Assembly (NCBI RefSeq): GCF_019297855.1
Contig: NZ_CP079194.1
Location: 1,165,501 to 1,229,500, forward strand
Reading direction: 5' to 3'
From: Gymnodinialimonas ceratoperidinii
GTDB lineage: Bacteria; Pseudomonadota; Alphaproteobacteria; Rhodobacterales; Rhodobacteraceae
DNA: 64,000 nucleotides
The translations under genes and the position numbers were made by a program. The notes under the pieces were generated by a model, which saw nothing but the letters and a program-made list of their open reading frames with translations, was not told where the DNA came from and ran no database searches. Shown in pieces: positions 51,846-59,935 of this stretch (positions are counted from its first letter, which is position 1; every line of letters begins with the position of its first letter).

Positions 51846-53384
51846 ATGGCGTCACGGATTTTCGGAAGCCCACAAATTTTGGCAAGCGTCGCCGCGATGA
51901 TGATCGCCGGCAGCGCCGTGGCGCAGGAAACGGCGACACCCGACGCACCGACGCCGGACGCAAGCAGCGCTGCGGAAACCACGACGGACATCCAGCAGTA
52001 CGACAATGGCGGCATCTACGAGGGCGAGTTCCGCAACGGCGTCCAGCACGGTACCGGCACCTATCGCCTGCCCAACGGCTATACCTACACCGGCACCTGG
52101 GTCGATGGTGAGATCAGGGGCCAAGGCCGCGCCGTCTTCCCCGACCAGTCGATCTACGAGGGTGCCTTCATCGCCGGCCGGCCCCATGGCACCGGCACCA
52201 TCACCTTCGCCGACGGCTCCACCTATGAGGGCGATTGGGTCGAGGGCCGGATCGAGGGTAACGGGACGGCTGTCTATTCGAACGGCGTGACCTATACCGG
52301 CAGCTTCCGCAATGCACTGCACCACGGCACCGGCCTGATGACGGGTCCCGAAGGCTACCGCTATGAGGGCGAATGGGTCGACGGGGTGAAGCAGGGCACC
52401 GGCACGATCACCTATCCCGATGGCGCGACGTATACCGGCCAGTTCGACGGCGGCGTCCGCTCGGGCACGGGGCGGCTCGAGATGGCGGACGGCGTGATCT
52501 ACGAGGGCGAGTGGGCCGAGGGTCAGATCAATGGCCAAGGCACGCTGACGCAGCCCAACGGCGACGTCTACGTCGGTGCGCTGGTGAACGGTCAACGTCA
52601 AGGCGCGGGCCGCGTGACCTATGCCAATGGCGATGTCTACGAGGGCGCCTTTGCCGAGGATCGCCGCCACGGCGACGGCACGTTCACCGGGACCGATGGC
52701 TACGTCTACACCGGCAACTGGGTCGAGGGCCGGATCGAGGGCGAGGGCACGGTCACCTATCCCGACGGCTCGATCTACGTGGGCCAGTTCCGCAACGATC
52801 TCGCCCATGGTCAGGGCACGATCACCTATCCGGACGGCGCCTCCTATACGGGTGCCTGGGTCGACGGCGTGATCCAGGGGGCGGGCGTGGCGACTTACGC
52901 CAACGGGCTCGTCTACGACGGTCAGTTCCTCAACGCGCGCCAGCATGGCGAGGGCGTGATGAGCCATCCCGACGGTTACCGCTACGAGGGCCAGTGGGAA
53001 GACGGCCTGCGCCACGGTCAGGGTCAGGCAACCTACGCCGACGGCACGGTCTACGAGGGCAGCTTTGCCGCCGGTCAGCGCCAAGGCCAAGGCACGCTCA
53101 CCATGCCGGACGGGTTCACCTACACAGGCGAGTGGCAAGACGGTGAGATCAACGGCGCCGGCACGGCCACCTATTCCAACGGCGACGTCTATGAGGGCAC
53201 CTTCGTCAACGGTCGCCGCCAAGGCGCGGGCACGATGACCTATGCCTCTGGCGAGGTGCTGGAAACCCAGTGGGAGAACGGCTTGCCCTCCGGTGAAGCC
53301 ACGGACGCGCCAACCCCGGCCGAGACGCCGGATACCGGCGAAGTAGAGCCGGGCGCCGAGGATCCGACAGACACCGACGAATGA
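51846..53384 (+). CDS. exported MORN-repeat protein, 18 repeats
   Basis: A 512-residue protein. Signal peptide to about residue 26 (AGSAVAQ), a short Thr/Ala/Pro/Asp linker, then 18 tandem MORN repeats of exactly 23 residues from residue 58 to 471, each with Y-x-G-x-(W/F)...G-x-G...(D/N)G. A nineteenth, decayed repeat and an acidic tail rich in Thr, Glu and Pro end it. Repeats n and n+9 resemble each other (see the finding). MORN proteins form elongated beta sheets; the role of this periplasmic or exported one is unknown. The repeat starts are the Tyr at 58 + 23(n-1). Confidence 0.93.
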   Translation: MASRIFGSPQILASVAAMMIAGSAVAQETATPDAPTPDASSAAETTTDIQQYDNGGIYEGEFRNGVQHGTGTYRLPNGYTYTGTWVDGEIRGQGRAVFPDQSIYEGAFIAGRPHGTGTITFADGSTYEGDWVEGRIEGNGTAVYSNGVTYTGSFRNALHHGTGLMTGPEGYRYEGEWVDGVKQGTGTITYPDGATYTGQFDGGVRSGTGRLEMADGVIYEGEWAEGQINGQGTLTQPNGDVYVGALVNGQRQGAGRVTYANGDVYEGAFAEDRRHGDGTFTGTDGYVYTGNWVEGRIEGEGTVTYPDGSIYVGQFRNDLAHGQGTITYPDGASYTGAWVDGVIQGAGVATYANGLVYDGQFLNARQHGEGVMSHPDGYRYEGQWEDGLRHGQGQATYADGTVYEGSFAAGQRQGQGTLTMPDGFTYTGEWQDGEINGAGTATYSNGDVYEGTFVNGRRQGAGTMTYASGEVLETQWENGLPSGEATDAPTPAETPDTGEVEPGAEDPTDTDE

Positions 53385-53909: not shown

Positions 53910-53947
53910 GACCGGCCCTTGGCTTGACCAAGGGCCGGTCGCTTTTT
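53910..53947 (+). terminator. rho-independent terminator
   Basis: GACCGGCCCTTGG (53910-53922) pairs perfectly with CCAAGGGCCGGTC (53928-53940), then GCTTTTT. A 13-bp stem, the best in the window. Confidence 0.93.
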
Positions 53948-53959
53948 GTCTGGCGCAGC

Positions 53960-56035
53960 TTACGCGGCGATCAGGCCCATGGATTCCAGCTTCAGCAGAA
54001 CCTGCTGAGCGCAGTAATCCACATCCATACCCTCGGTATCGACGACAAGCTCGGCATTGGTCGGCTCTTCATAAGGGTCCGAGATGCCGGTGAATTCCTT
54101 GATCTTGCCTTCGCGCGCCAGCTTGTAGAGGCCCTTGCGGTCGCGGCGCTCGCATTCCTCGAGCGACGTGGCAACATGGACCTCGATGAAGGCACCGAAC
54201 TGCTCGATCTCTTCGCGCACAGCCCGGCGGGTCGCGGTGTAGGGCGCGATCGGCGCGCAGATGGCGATGCCGCCGTTCTTGGTGATCTCCGAGGCGACGT
54301 AGCCGATGCGGCGGATATTCAGGTCGCGGTGCTCTTTCGAGAATCCGAGTTCCGACGACAGGTTTTTGCGCACCACGTCACCGTCCAGCAGCGTCACCGG
54401 ACGCCCGCCTTGCTCCATCAGCTTGACCATGATCGCGTTGGCGATGGTCGACTTGCCCGAGCCGGAAAGGCCGGTGAAGAACACCGTGAAGCCCTGCTGC
54501 GAGCGCGGCGGCGAGGTGCGGCGCAGCTCTTCCACGACCTGCGGGAAGGAGAACCACTCGGGAATCTCCAGCCCTTCGCGCAGGCGGCGGCGCAGCTCGG
54601 TGCCAGAGATGTTCAGGATCGTGACGTCATCCTTGTCGGTGATCTCGTCGGCGGGCTCGTACTGGGCGCGTTCCTGGACGTAGACCATGTGTTTGAAGTC
54701 CACCATCTCGATGCCCATTTCCTCCTGATGCTCGCGGAAGAGGTCCTGCGCATCGTAGGGGCCGTAGAAATCCTCGCCGGCGGAGTTCTTGCCGGGGCCC
54801 GCGTGGTCGCGGCCGACGATGAAATGGGTGCAGCCGTGGTTCTTGCGGATCAGCCCGTGCCAGACGGCCTCGCGCGGGCCGGCCATGCGCATGGCGAGGT
54901 TCAGCAGGCTCATCGACGTGGTCGCGGCGGGGTATTGATCAAGCACCGCCTCGTAGCAACGCACGCGGGTGAAGTGATCGACGTCACCGGGCTTGGTCAT
55001 GCCCACAACGGGGTGGATCAGCAGGTTGGCCTGCGCTTCCTTGGCGGCGCGGAAGGTCAGCTCCTGATGGGCGCGGTGCAGCGGGTTGCGGGTCTGGAAG
55101 GCCACGATCTTGCGCCAGCCAAGCTTGCGGAAATAGGCACGCAGCTCGTTCGGTGTGTCGCGGCGGGCGCGGAAATCATAGTGGACGGGCTGCTGGATGC
55201 CGGTGATCGCGCCGCCCAGATAGATCGGGCCCGCGACGTTATGCAGGTAGTTCACCGCCGGATGGGCGAGGTCATCGGCGCCGTAGACCTTCTCGGCCTC
55301 GCGCGCCTTGTTCGGCGTCCACTTGTCGCTGATCGACAGGATCGCGAGGATCACGCCTTCGGCGTCCCGCAGCGCGATGTCCTGACCGGGCTCGATCCCT
55401 TCGGCGAAGGCCTCGGAGACGTCGAGCGTGATCGGCATCGGCCAGAGCGTGCCGTCGGCCATGCGCATGTTCTCGACCACGTTGTCGTAGTCCTCTTGCC
55501 CCATGAACCCCTTCAAAGGGTTGAAACCGCCGTTCATCAACAGTTCCAGATCGCAAACCTGCCGCGCGGTCAGGTCCCAGGAGGGCAGTTCGCCAGCCTC
55601 GACCTTCAGTTTCTGGGCGCTGTCATAGGAGACGTAGAGCTCCGGGATCGGAGCGTGGAGAGGGGCTGCCATATTCGTATTCCTGTCTTTCGAGAGCTTG
55701 GGAGAAAGCGCGCGGCCGGTCAGTTCGGCATGGAGCGCGTTATATTCATCAAATTTGCGGGCGAGAAACTTGTCGACCAACTGCGATTTCACTGCAGCGC
55801 CGCGAGGGGTCAGCGCGTAGCTGACCTTCTGCCGCCGGTCCGGGCTGTTGCGGTCCGACAATTGGACAAGTCCGGCCTCGGTCACCGCGCGTAGCAGCGC
55901 ATTGAGGCGCCCGAGGCTTATGCCCAGAGCCTGAGCCGTGACGCGCTGCGACCCCTCCGGCGCGAGATCAATCTGGCGCAGGAGGCGGAAGAGAAGATCA
56001 TCTTCCGGCAGTGTTACAGGGGCTGGCGCAGGCAT
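53960..56035 (-). CDS. MarR-like domain fused to bifunctional ATP sulfurylase/APS kinase
   Basis: A 691-residue open frame without a stop between its parts. Residues about 1-115 are a winged helix like the EPS-associated MarR family (LLFRLLRQIDLAPEGSQRVTAQALGISLGRLNALLRAVTEAGLV, in parts; YALTPRGAAVKSQLVDKFLARKFDEYNAL). From Met122 on it is a sulfate adenylyltransferase (QTRNPLHRAH at 314-323; GRDHAGPG at 408-415) and then APS kinase (P-loop GLSGSGKST at 522-530; DGDVVRKNLS). The enzyme part makes PAPS from sulfate and two ATP. Met122 (55672) has AGGA eight bases upstream, so a shorter enzyme-only product may also be made. An upstream TTG at 56080 is in frame but falls within the promoter. 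Confidence 0.93.
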   Translation of the reverse strand: MPAPAPVTLPEDDLLFRLLRQIDLAPEGSQRVTAQALGISLGRLNALLRAVTEAGLVQLSDRNSPDRRQKVSYALTPRGAAVKSQLVDKFLARKFDEYNALHAELTGRALSPKLSKDRNTNMAAPLHAPIPELYVSYDSAQKLKVEAGELPSWDLTARQVCDLELLMNGGFNPLKGFMGQEDYDNVVENMRMADGTLWPMPITLDVSEAFAEGIEPGQDIALRDAEGVILAILSISDKWTPNKAREAEKVYGADDLAHPAVNYLHNVAGPIYLGGAITGIQQPVHYDFRARRDTPNELRAYFRKLGWRKIVAFQTRNPLHRAHQELTFRAAKEAQANLLIHPVVGMTKPGDVDHFTRVRCYEAVLDQYPAATTSMSLLNLAMRMAGPREAVWHGLIRKNHGCTHFIVGRDHAGPGKNSAGEDFYGPYDAQDLFREHQEEMGIEMVDFKHMVYVQERAQYEPADEITDKDDVTILNISGTELRRRLREGLEIPEWFSFPQVVEELRRTSPPRSQQGFTVFFTGLSGSGKSTIANAIMVKLMEQGGRPVTLLDGDVVRKNLSSELGFSKEHRDLNIRRIGYVASEITKNGGIAICAPIAPYTATRRAVREEIEQFGAFIEVHVATSLEECERRDRKGLYKLAREGKIKEFTGISDPYEEPTNAELVVDTEGMDVDYCAQQVLLKLESMGLIAA
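55681..55684 (-). promoter_or_regulatory. internal ribosome site before the enzyme part
   Basis: Minus-strand AGGA, eight bases before ATG 55672. It could start a separate 570-residue ATP sulfurylase/APS kinase from the same mRNA. Confidence 0.55.
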
Positions 56036-56055: not shown

Positions 56056-56069
56056 GTTCACGAATGAAC
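56056..56069. promoter_or_regulatory. operator 1 of the MarR-sulfurylase gene
   Basis: GTTCA-CGAA-TGAAC, an inverted repeat. It lies at the -10/start region of the predicted promoter, 21-34 bases before ATG 56035. It is the exact reverse complement of operator 2. Confidence 0.7.
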
Positions 56070-56096
56070 GCATGCCACAACGCGCGCCAATGTCAA
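56068..56096 (-). promoter_or_regulatory. promoter of the MarR-sulfurylase gene
   Basis: Minus strand TTGACA (56096 to 56091), 17 bases, ATGCGT (56073 to 56068). The -35 is perfect; the -10 is weak, as expected of a regulated promoter. Confidence 0.5.
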
Positions 56097-56104
56097 AGAA
56101 CTTT

Positions 56105-56118
56105 GTTCATTCGTGAAC
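56105..56118. promoter_or_regulatory. operator 2 of the MarR-sulfurylase gene
   Basis: GTTCA-TTCG-TGAAC, just upstream of the -35. Same palindrome as operator 1 in mirror orientation, 49 bases away. Confidence 0.7.
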
Positions 56119-56230: not shown

Positions 56231-57232
56231 TTACTCGGCAGCGCCGACGTCCACGGGAGCCGCGTAGACGCCAGCCTCCGCAGTGTCTTCGCCTTCCATT
56301 TCAGCCAGGAACTTCTCTGCATCCAGCGCCGCCATGCAACCCATGCCTGCGCTCGTGACCGCCTGGCGATAGACGTGGTCGGTCAAATCACCCGCGGCAA
56401 AGACGCCGGGGATCGAAGTCTTCGTCGTGCCGGCCTGCACCTTCACGTAGCCGCCGTTGTGCATCTCGAGCTGGTCCTTCACCAGCTCGGTCGCCGGCGC
56501 GTGGCCGATTGCGACGAAGAAGCCCTTGCAGGGGATCTCGGTGATTTCGCCGGTCTCGACATGTTTGGCACGAACGCCCTCCACACCGCGCGGGTCCGAC
56601 GTGCCGACAACCTCGGCCACTTCGTGATCCCACAGGACCTCTACCTTGGGGTTCTTGAACAGGCGATCCTGCATGATCTTCTCGGCGCGCAGGCTGTCGC
56701 GGCGGTGGATAAGCGTGACCTTGGAGGCGAAGTTGGTGAGGAACAGAGCCTCCTCCACCGCCGTGTTGCCGCCGCCGATCACGACGATCTCCTGACCGCG
56801 GTAGAAGAAGCCGTCACAGGTGGCGCAGGCGCTGACGCCGAAGCCCTTGAAGTGCTCTTCGCTCGGCAGACCCAACCACTTTGCCTGCGCGCCGGTCGCC
56901 AATACGACCGCATCGGCCGTATATGTCGTACCGCTGTCGCCCTGCGCCGTGAAGGGGCGCTTGGAGAGATCGAGAGACTGGATGTGATCGCCGATGATCT
57001 CGGTCCCCATCTCCTTGGCGTGGGCTTCCATCCGCACCATCAGGTCAGGCCCCATGACGGAGTTGTCGCCGGGCCAGTTCTCCACGTCGGTGGTGATCGT
57101 CAGCTGTCCGCCGGGCTGGATGCCTTGGACCAGAATAGGCTCGAGCATGGCGCGGCTGGCATAGACGCCCGCCGTGTAGCCAGCAGGGCCGGAGCCGATG
57201 ATCAGAAGGCGGGTGTGGCGGGTCTCGGACAT
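56231..57232 (-). CDS. trxB: thioredoxin reductase
   Basis: A 333-residue NADPH-dependent flavoprotein. FAD site [14 protein letters not shown], redox pair C136-A-T-C139 in ACATCDG, NADPH site [13 protein letters not shown], and the second FAD motif [15 protein letters not shown]. It recycles thioredoxin. The C-terminal 15-residue Ala-rich tail is longer than in E. coli. ATG 57232 is chosen; an upstream frame is antisense to lrp. Two 14-bp palindromes lie in its leader. Confidence 0.97.
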
Positions 57233-57263
57233 GGGTGTGGCTCTCCAGCGGCGATGTGACCTC

Positions 57264-57922: not shown

Positions 57923-59935
57923 ATGGCTGCGCCTGACCTGACGGCCCTCTACAAGGAGGGGCTCGCCGCGCAGCAAGCCGGGAAAACCGACGCGGCACTG
58001 GCTATCTTCGACCGTATCCTGTCGCAGCGCGCGGACATTCCCGAGGTGCTCTTCCAACGCGCACGGTGCCTGATGGCGCGTGATCCGAAAGCGGCCGAGA
58101 AGGATTTCCGCGCAGCACTTCGGCGCAAGCCGAAAGAGGCCGCGATCTGGCAAGGTCTCCATAGCGTCCTGCGCGGCGGTGCGCGGGTGAAACTGGAGAA
58201 AGAGGCGTTCCGCGCGAAGATCACTCTCGGGTCCGAGGCCGATGCACGTCCGATCCTGCAGGCTCTGAAATCGGGCCGCGCCGACCAGGCTGAAATGGCA
58301 GCCGTGGCGCTCGGCAAGCGCGCCCCCGCGGCGTTCTGGCCCGCATATCTGTTGGGAGAGGCGCGCCTCGCGCTTTCGAAGCCCGCTGTCGCGCCGTTGG
58401 AAACAGCCGTCGCACGGGACCCGGATTATGTTCCCGCCCGACTGGCCTTGGCCCGCGCCTATGCTGGCGCGCAGAGACCTGCTCAGGCCGAGGCCACATT
58501 GGGCGATCTCGCGACGCCCGAGGCCACATTGATCCGAGCGCGGCTGTTCCGGGATACCGGCCGTCCGGAAGCCGCCGTCGAGGCCTTGCAATCGCGACCG
58601 CTCAAGGACGCGCGCGGAGCGGCTGAGCTGGCGCTGTCCTTGGCGCAACTGGGGAAAGGCGACGCCGCGCTTGACGCTGCGCGTGACGCCATCAAGGCAG
58701 GCGCCGCCACCGAACCTCTGCTACGCGCCACGGCCTTCGCACTGGAAGAGGCGGGCAATATCGCCGGCGCCGAGGCTGTCATCGACGAGGCTCTGAAGAC
58801 GCCAACCGCGACGCTCATGACCCACCGAGCACAGTTGCATCAATCGGCTGGTGAGTTCGCTGCGGCCGAGGCGGGTCTGATCGCTGCAATCGACGCGACC
58901 CCGACTCATGGCGAGGCCTACCGCGCCTATATGAACGGCCGCAAAATTACCGAGGACGACCCGATCCTGCCGCGCCTCGACGCCGTGTTGGAGCGCGCGG
59001 ACATCAAGGCACCCGACCGCGCGGCCTTGCATTTCGCCGCCGCGAAGGCGCGGGGAGACATGGGACAGCATGATGCTGTTTTCCCGCATCTCGATGTCGC
59101 TAACCGCTTGATGGGCAAGGCCTATCCCTACAATTTCGAAGCGGATCTGGCCGAAGCGCGGCTTCTGACGGCTGAGTGGAACACCCTCAAGGACGTTCCC
59201 GCACAAGGGCCGGTTGACCCGGTGATCTTCGTGACCGGCCTGCCGCGCAGTGGCACGACGCTGATCGAAACCATCCTCGCCGCGCACCCCGATGTTGGCG
59301 CCGGTGGCGAGATGCCGTTCCTCTCCCGCGCGCTGATGCCGGTGCTGGAGGCGCTGCGCCACGACACATTGTCACCCGACGCGCTAGCCACGGCGGGTCA
59401 GCGGTACCTCAGCGCTGCGCAGCGACGTACGGGAGGAGCTCGGGTCATCGCCGACAAGGCGATTGCCACGTTTTCCCGCATCGGCCATGCCGCCCGCGCG
59501 CTGCCGGGGGCGCATTTCGTGTTGGTGAAACGTGACCCTCGCGACACCGGCCTGTCGCTCTACCGCAACATGTTTCCGGAGGGCTTGCACCGCTACGCCT
59601 ATGATTTGCAGGCCATGGGAAAATACATTCGGCTTCACGACGCCGTGGTGGAATTCTGGCAGAAAGCGCTGCCCGACCGCGTGCATGTGGTGGAATACGA
59701 GGCGCTGACCGCTGAGCCGGAACCCCACATCCGGGCGTTGCTCGAGGCGGTGGATCTGCCGTGGAACGATGCGTGCCTTGCGCCAGAGGCGACGGGCCGG
59801 CGCATCCAGACGCTCAGCTTCGCGCAAGCGCGGCAGCCGATCGGAACCACGGCTGTGGCCGGGTGGAGGCGTCATGCGGAAGAATTGCAGCCGCTCATCG
59901 CGACGCTCGAGGCGGATATGGATCTGACGCTTTGA
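57923..59935 (+). CDS. TPR-domain sulfotransferase
   Basis: A 670-residue protein. Residues about 1-395 are Ala-rich helical repeats of TPR type (e.g. LYKEGLAAQQAGKTDAALAIFDRIL, in parts); residues about 430-665 form a sulfotransferase domain with the PAPS loop VTGLPRSGTTLIE and HFVLVKRDPRDTGLSLYRNMF (3'-phosphate motif). No signal peptide is seen. Such TPR-sulfotransferase fusions are frequent in Rhodobacterales; their acceptor (protein, sugar or lipid) is unknown. It is three bases after lrp and co-transcribed. Confidence 0.92.
   Translation: MAAPDLTALYKEGLAAQQAGKTDAALAIFDRILSQRADIPEVLFQRARCLMARDPKAAEKDFRAALRRKPKEAAIWQGLHSVLRGGARVKLEKEAFRAKITLGSEADARPILQALKSGRADQAEMAAVALGKRAPAAFWPAYLLGEARLALSKPAVAPLETAVARDPDYVPARLALARAYAGAQRPAQAEATLGDLATPEATLIRARLFRDTGRPEAAVEALQSRPLKDARGAAELALSLAQLGKGDAALDAARDAIKAGAATEPLLRATAFALEEAGNIAGAEAVIDEALKTPTATLMTHRAQLHQSAGEFAAAEAGLIAAIDATPTHGEAYRAYMNGRKITEDDPILPRLDAVLERADIKAPDRAALHFAAAKARGDMGQHDAVFPHLDVANRLMGKAYPYNFEADLAEARLLTAEWNTLKDVPAQGPVDPVIFVTGLPRSGTTLIETILAAHPDVGAGGEMPFLSRALMPVLEALRHDTLSPDALATAGQRYLSAAQRRTGGARVIADKAIATFSRIGHAARALPGAHFVLVKRDPRDTGLSLYRNMFPEGLHRYAYDLQAMGKYIRLHDAVVEFWQKALPDRVHVVEYEALTAEPEPHIRALLEAVDLPWNDACLAPEATGRRIQTLSFAQARQPIGTTAVAGWRRHAEELQPLIATLEADMDLTL

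Follow-up and report, generated by a model that had tools for sequence, protein, structure and literature searches.

A winged-helix domain fused to ATP sulfurylase/APS kinase in the Rhodobacteraceae: a putative autorepressed enzyme with a conserved internal start

The fused gene and its parts

The window, a 64,000-nucleotide stretch of the genome of Gymnodinialimonas ceratoperidinii, carries on its minus strand (53960..56035) a gene which, by translation and domain profiles, joins a winged-helix domain to an ATP sulfurylase and an APS kinase. The frame runs from an ATG at 56035 to a stop at 53960 with no internal stop codons and specifies a long form of 691 amino acids; an alternative in-frame TTG at 56080 would give a product of 706 amino acids. 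The genome is a single contig of 3.62 Mb in which the gene is present as one copy. On its 3' side a sequence scan revealed a hairpin resembling an intrinsic terminator (53910..53940), while its upstream neighbour is trxB (thioredoxin reductase, named by eye; 56231..57235, minus strand, start approximate), which adjoins the fused gene in 75 of 80 fused loci. Two other frames of the window, also named by eye, deserve mention. The first (57923-59935), near the sulfate-activating gene, combines TPR repeats with a sulfotransferase domain and is a possible user of PAPS; the second (51846-53384) is a 512-amino acid frame of repeated MORN-like units, and at 12 of the 80 loci a relative of it is found close to the fusion.

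A previous reading made from the letters alone (the sequence-only reading) had claimed an in-frame fusion of a regulator domain to a complete sulfurylase/kinase, and this is confirmed by the 691-residue frame and its conservation in relatives. The fusion of winged helix and sulfurylase is real. Sequencing error or chance readthrough is ruled out by the single-contig genome and by in-frame recurrence across relatives. No hidden stop or frameshift, such as that reading had allowed for, came to light (the frame is open in 80/80 and 30/30 loci of relatives), nor are the two parts always separate genes, the fusion being present in 91 of the 394 family genomes.

The enzyme part (53960..55672, minus strand) comprises PUA-like, ATP sulfurylase and APS kinase domains (PF14306, PF01747, PF01583). 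Bifunctional ATP sulfurylase/APS kinases are marked by the active-site motif QxRNPxHxxH and the P-loop GxxxxGKS, and both are present in the translation as QTRNPLHRAH and GLSGSGKS. Residues 121-690 score 1047.5 bits against PRK05537, well over the curated cut-off of 669, and the enzyme is complete as read from its domains. This it shares with the bifunctional enzymes of the PRK05537 type, including the solved 1i2d and 2gks, from which the fused protein differs by about 120 extra N-terminal residues; the best-matching stretches of 36 solved relatives start at its residue 129 or later. Among the 120 proteins listed of 599 found, the names given by the source are those of the enzyme, apart from one hypothetical protein, and none is called a regulator. 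The sequence-only reading knew of no described sulfurylase with such a domain, and no description was found in the literature searched, most subscription journals lying outside it.

The winged-helix (MarR_EPS-like) domain occupies residues 11-106 (55718..56005, minus strand), as judged from TIGR04176, an AlphaFold2 model and PDB folds. In isolation it matches NCBIfam TIGR04176 (MarR_EPS) with an E value of 2.4e-23 and 82.2 bits (77.5 bits within the whole fused protein), just below the curated cut-off of 88 bits. The model matches 31/31 fused domains at E ≤ 0.001, but its weak matches say little since it also gives hits below its threshold in half of the control genomes (7 of 14). MarR_EPS regulators typically reside in exopolysaccharide loci, a placement not seen here, where trxB is the neighbour both in the window and in the 75 loci mentioned above. 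Thus, when the proposed EPS-associated MarR type was checked against the profile, the winged helix of MarR_EPS kind held up and full membership did not: because the domain lies below the cut-off and beside trxB, "EPS type" is the name of its domain family and not its role.

The AlphaFold2 model of the N-terminal domain (mean pLDDT 82.5) displays the winged-helix order of elements, with a long helix at residues 77-106 followed by a low-confidence linker; the full-length model, of mean pLDDT 58.2, was not used beyond this domain. Among its best structural matches in the PDB, MarR-family repressors predominate and PadR-family folds follow closely, and the modelled domain is predicted to have a MarR-type winged-helix fold. 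A sequence profile compared with the PDB gave no more than weak matches to the MarR family, the best being CouR (E 0.036). The predicted recognition helix (residues 41-53; 55877..55915, minus strand; AlphaFold2 model and alignment) contains L41, G42, N45 and L48, which are invariant in 22 aligned rows, and is immediately preceded by S40. Values of dN/dS, rough because dS is high and near saturation, are 0.07-0.13 for the N-terminal domain (10 pairs with the window where computable), 0.04-0.11 for the enzyme part (11 pairs) and 0.25-0.98 (8 pairs) for the variable linker of low model confidence that connects them (residues 108-121; 55673..55714, minus strand). Judged by these ratios, the N-terminal domain is under purifying selection at the protein level.

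Distribution and descent of the fusion

The 91 fused genomes among the 394 surveyed in the family (393 genera; counted by hand) consist of 90 with N-terminal domains of at least 145 bits plus genome G593, and their frames are 600 amino acids or longer, apart from a single frame truncated where its contig stops. Thirty of the 91 were read in detail, all 30 being in frame; the remainder of the count rests on open-frame length. Among 121 genomes the N-terminal domain (over 126 bits, hand count) was present in 22, the window's own included, with open frames of 690 amino acids or more save one cut by a contig end, and the fusion was present in every one of the 12 other congeneric genomes searched. 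A search of named genomes with the N-terminal domain, a query which favours close relatives, found 309 loci. In every one of the best 80 the domain continues without a frame break into the enzyme, L129 and L149 being truncated on the downstream side by the end of a contig. These 80 include Roseicyclus, Nioella, Roseovarius, Phaeobacter, Octadecabacter, Thalassovita, Jannaschia and Sulfitobacter. More distant relatives of the domain stand alone in the same family (59 listed rows, hand count), and those looked at lie in short open frames of 119-225 amino acids.

On a tree of the domain (41 fused rows, taken from the window and from alternate loci of the 80 named, with 26 stand-alone rows and locus L287) the fused N-terminal domains form one group, supported at 87/80 and not starred. 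On a tree of the enzyme (79 fused and 34 unfused rows, length having excluded L129, L149 and one of 35 unfused sequences) there are 19 changes of the fused label, four of which are forced by starred, that is well-supported, branches. The pattern points to repeated loss or transfer of the fusion, gain and loss being indistinguishable on the enzyme tree, and its simplest reading would be a single fusion event and, after it, numerous losses or transfers.

In unfused genes the N-terminal domain and the upstream palindrome described in the next section are absent together. Since the two adjoin, and one deletion could remove both, the contrast between fused and unfused genes does not represent many independent tests; independent fused/unfused pairs on starred branches number four (p 0.125).

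Locus L287 of genome G593 (666-2804) has a divergent winged helix which, through a longer linker, is in frame with sat-cysC; it possesses two perfect GTTCA-N4-TGAAC sites at a distance of 25 bp from each other, and an ATG with an internal AGGA of its own ahead of it. This is possibly an independent second fusion, and because on the domain tree it sits, on a long branch, next to the other fusions (93/80, not starred) a single origin may also account for it.

A palindrome upstream of fused and stand-alone genes

Palindrome search revealed two perfect copies of the core GTTCA-N4-TGAAC upstream of the long-form ATG, both of which we predict to be operators. The proximal copy, GTTCACGAATGAAC in plus-strand reading (56056..56069), is separated from the ATG by 20 bases; the distal copy, GTTCATTCGTGAAC, again in plus-strand reading (56105..56118), is 49 bp from the first, start to start. 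The core is found upstream in 22/22 fused loci (the window's own included; 12 with two perfect copies), in 78 of the 80 named fused loci (17 with two) and in 30/30 fused loci of the family survey (2 with two), three sets which overlap. Paired perfect copies are mostly 49 bp apart (18/26 distances). The N4 spacers are of 36 different kinds among 94 distinct promoters, the commonest being TCCG (14), and some flanking positions are conserved too, such as the AT immediately before the palindrome. The exceptions are L129, which lacks a site and whose upstream sequence is unlike that of L107 despite a near-identical N-terminal domain, and L159, which has one mismatch in the palindrome and ATA as its internal codon. 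A consensus promoter of the sigma-70 type was looked for near the start and not found, so that overlap of the operator with the promoter is judged from position.

The palindrome, at one mismatch or fewer, is absent within 600 bp of all 35 sat-cysC genes from this family that lack the fusion (38 loci less L209, which is fused, and L229 and L234, which have no start motif), despite the presence of trxB upstream in 24 of 37 unfused loci. Among 19 stand-alone winged-helix genes of the family, from the 59 listed, a perfect N4 site lies upstream of 10 and is missing from 9, and these misses count against a simple rule tying site to domain. Six other stand-alone genes of the family have N4 (L026, L027), N5 (L029) or no site (L024, L025, L028). 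In five genomes of the class the relative exceeds the TIGR04176 cut-off, and a perfect N4 site is missing from all five: the spacing in L183 is N5, L179 and L180 differ by one mismatch, L182 by two, and L181 has none.

A class-wide subgroup of winged-helix proteins of about 220 amino acids is represented by 23 loci (L186-L208), all of which except L196 could be anchored. A perfect GTTCA-N5-TGAAC, mostly in two copies, stands upstream in 20 of these 22, the exceptions being L192 and L207; for spacings between 0 and 12 there was no site other than N5. These proteins, which probably constitute another autoregulated family to judge from their promoters, contain a PF13412 winged helix and, in the two scanned, a C-terminal half with no Pfam match. 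Over all loci the tally of spacings is 258 N4, 47 N5 and 0-3 other, a biased figure, some loci having been fetched by the N4 pattern and the loci overlapping; the 19 stand-alone genes and the subgroup just described are the cleaner tests.

Since the sites also stand upstream of stand-alone winged-helix relatives, the motif appears to travel with the domain family. On these comparisons the palindrome is most likely the domain's own operator and the gene that of an autorepressed enzyme, and it is very likely that the fused protein binds DNA with its own promoter as the main target. The proposal that the enzyme may also bind DNA is thereby strengthened.

A separate regulator might bind the palindrome in place of the N-terminal domain, for example the sulfide sensor SqrR of the ArsR family. 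The motif of SqrR is GTTC-N8-GAAC, with which GTTCA-N4-TGAAC is compatible. Passages of one paper describe SqrR as a Rhodobacter regulator of sulfur genes (PMC10451225), and GTTC-N8-GAAC was not found in the passages available of PMC9995734, PMC9143464, PMC10451225 and PMC10044876. We consider a separate binder improbable, given that none of the 35 unfused sat genes has the palindrome while stand-alone winged helices with no attached sat do, and that the spacing, N4 or N5, tracks the winged-helix subgroup.

A wide regulon in this organism was considered and rejected, the whole genome holding four perfect sites of which two are at the fused gene. Of the others, one is close to a frame resembling an alpha/beta-hydrolase and one falls at the beginning of a surA-like gene (names by eye). 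The latter palindrome recurs from the window's genome (L080) in four congeners (L081, L082, L085, L086), and may reflect a coding constraint because its half TGAAC overlaps the start ATGAAC. Sites with one mismatch number 51 genome-wide against 12 for a reversed control; in the window alone, at up to two mismatches, 20 matches compare with a chance mean of 16.1, which is no excess, and the signal lies in the perfect sites. Elsewhere in the same genome (G000:C1:2009516-2009620) are two one-mismatch palindromes about 90 bp apart, and congeners (L089, L090, L091, L094, L098) have a cluster of GTTCA/TGAAC half-sites near prs-like, and in some H-type lectin-like, frames (by eye).

The internal start and the proposed regulation

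Met122 (55670..55672, minus strand) lies at the head of the enzyme part and would begin an enzyme-only short form of 570 amino acids. Ahead of it a Shine-Dalgarno sequence AGGA (55681..55684, minus strand) is formed by the AGG codon of Arg118 and the next base. In 93 distinct junctions, out of 102 loci (22 + 80), the internal start codon is ATG in 87, GTG in five and ATA in one, every one of the five valines at this position being encoded by GTG. The Arg codon in the alignment column is AGG in 92 of the 93 and CGG in one (AGG 88, AGA 4 and CGG 1 if the last Arg before the enzyme is tallied instead), a synonymous identity of 0.98. By comparison AGG reaches 6% at most at 50 other conserved Arg columns, and in the enzyme part overall accounts for 8 of 3648 Arg codons. 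The AGG is 9 bases before the start in 85/93; for some of the other eight the script took an earlier or later Met. In the family survey AGGA with ATG or GTG occurs in 28 of 30 loci, the other two having a CGG codon and a TTG start, respectively.

The conservation of the AGG and of the start codon thus places a Shine-Dalgarno site within a coding frame under selection. The internal ATG with a ribosome site that had been pointed out at 55672 is therefore strongly conserved, and it is very likely, on this codon evidence, that the 570-residue enzyme-only form is made from it; the gene should make two proteins. AGGA, GGAG and GAGG are absent ahead of the long start in 22/22 loci (three starts uncertain).

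The better ribosome site of the internal start, set beside the bare long start, would suit a winged helix that is a relic devoid of DNA binding, the internal start giving the sole functional product and the long frame being merely tolerated. Against such a relic, which strikes us as highly improbable, are a dN/dS of about 0.1, the invariant residues of the recognition helix, the frame open in every one of the 80 and 30 loci, and the retained operator. With low dN/dS in both the N-terminal domain and the enzyme, and a selected internal start, neither product resembles a relic.

From the fusion, the conservation of the operator and the selection upon the internal start we infer binding, repression and two cellular products, and regard it as probable that an autorepressing long form and an internally started bare enzyme make this gene a trigger enzyme of sulfate assimilation. 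The winged helix of the long form would bind GTTCA-N4-TGAAC at the gene's own promoter and repress it. The short form, initiated at the conserved internal ribosome site and start, would be the bare enzyme and probably provide the bulk of the activity. Known relatives of the enzyme part form oligomers. Because both forms share this oligomer-forming part, they may assemble into mixed oligomers in which the state or amount of the enzyme tunes repression.

How far the enzyme's state matters is where the explanations diverge. The main alternative to binding altered by a ligand is plain homeostatic autorepression, in which the long form represses independently of any ligand and the enzyme part supplies amount and oligomer. 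We hold this to be quite possible, if somewhat short of likely: all of the operator evidence fits it, and so does the linker, whose variability and weak constraint lend no support to a close coupling between domain and enzyme. It does leave the continued fusion of the domain unexplained, the best 80 of 309 N-domain loci all being fused, a figure to be read with the query's preference for the closest relatives and the existence of distant stand-alones. More tentatively still, the long form could sense occupancy by APS, PAPS or ATP, with the short form as anti-repressor and the long/short ratio fixing the set-point, such that one gene would encode enzyme, sensor, repressor and its own antagonist.

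BirA and NadR are trigger enzymes which repress their own genes. PutA doubles as proline dehydrogenase and as a repressor that acts directly on the put operon (PMC6978683). The fused protein resembles enzymes of the PutA type in combining a metabolic enzyme, complete to judge from its domains, with a putative DNA-binding repressor of its own gene; it differs in acting in sulfate activation, in its DNA-binding domain and in its conserved second start for an enzyme-only form. It would thus belong with the trigger enzymes, and the enzyme, the pairing of domains and the built-in second product would be new among them. With the MarR_EPS (TIGR04176) regulators it has in common the domain family, and the operator core found before part of the same-family stand-alones; unlike them it is fused to an enzyme, lies beside trxB and scores below the family cut-off (82.2 against 88), the stand-alones being in short frames. 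AerR of the related Rhodobacter capsulatus, as described in PMC6199135, is likewise a regulator with long and short isoforms, the latter being initiated internally at a ribosome site of its own, but AerR is a cobalamin-binding photoreceptor.

No account of the control of sulfate activation in the Roseobacter group was found in the literature searched, from which most subscription journals were absent. If the proposed autorepression is true, roughly a quarter of the sampled genomes of the family (91/394) would regulate sulfate activation through the enzyme itself. The analysis also predicts GTTCA-N4 or N5-TGAAC to be the operator of a winged-helix regulator family with fused and stand-alone members, and provides what would be a clean, conserved case of one gene giving regulator and enzyme by means of a start codon selected inside its coding frame.
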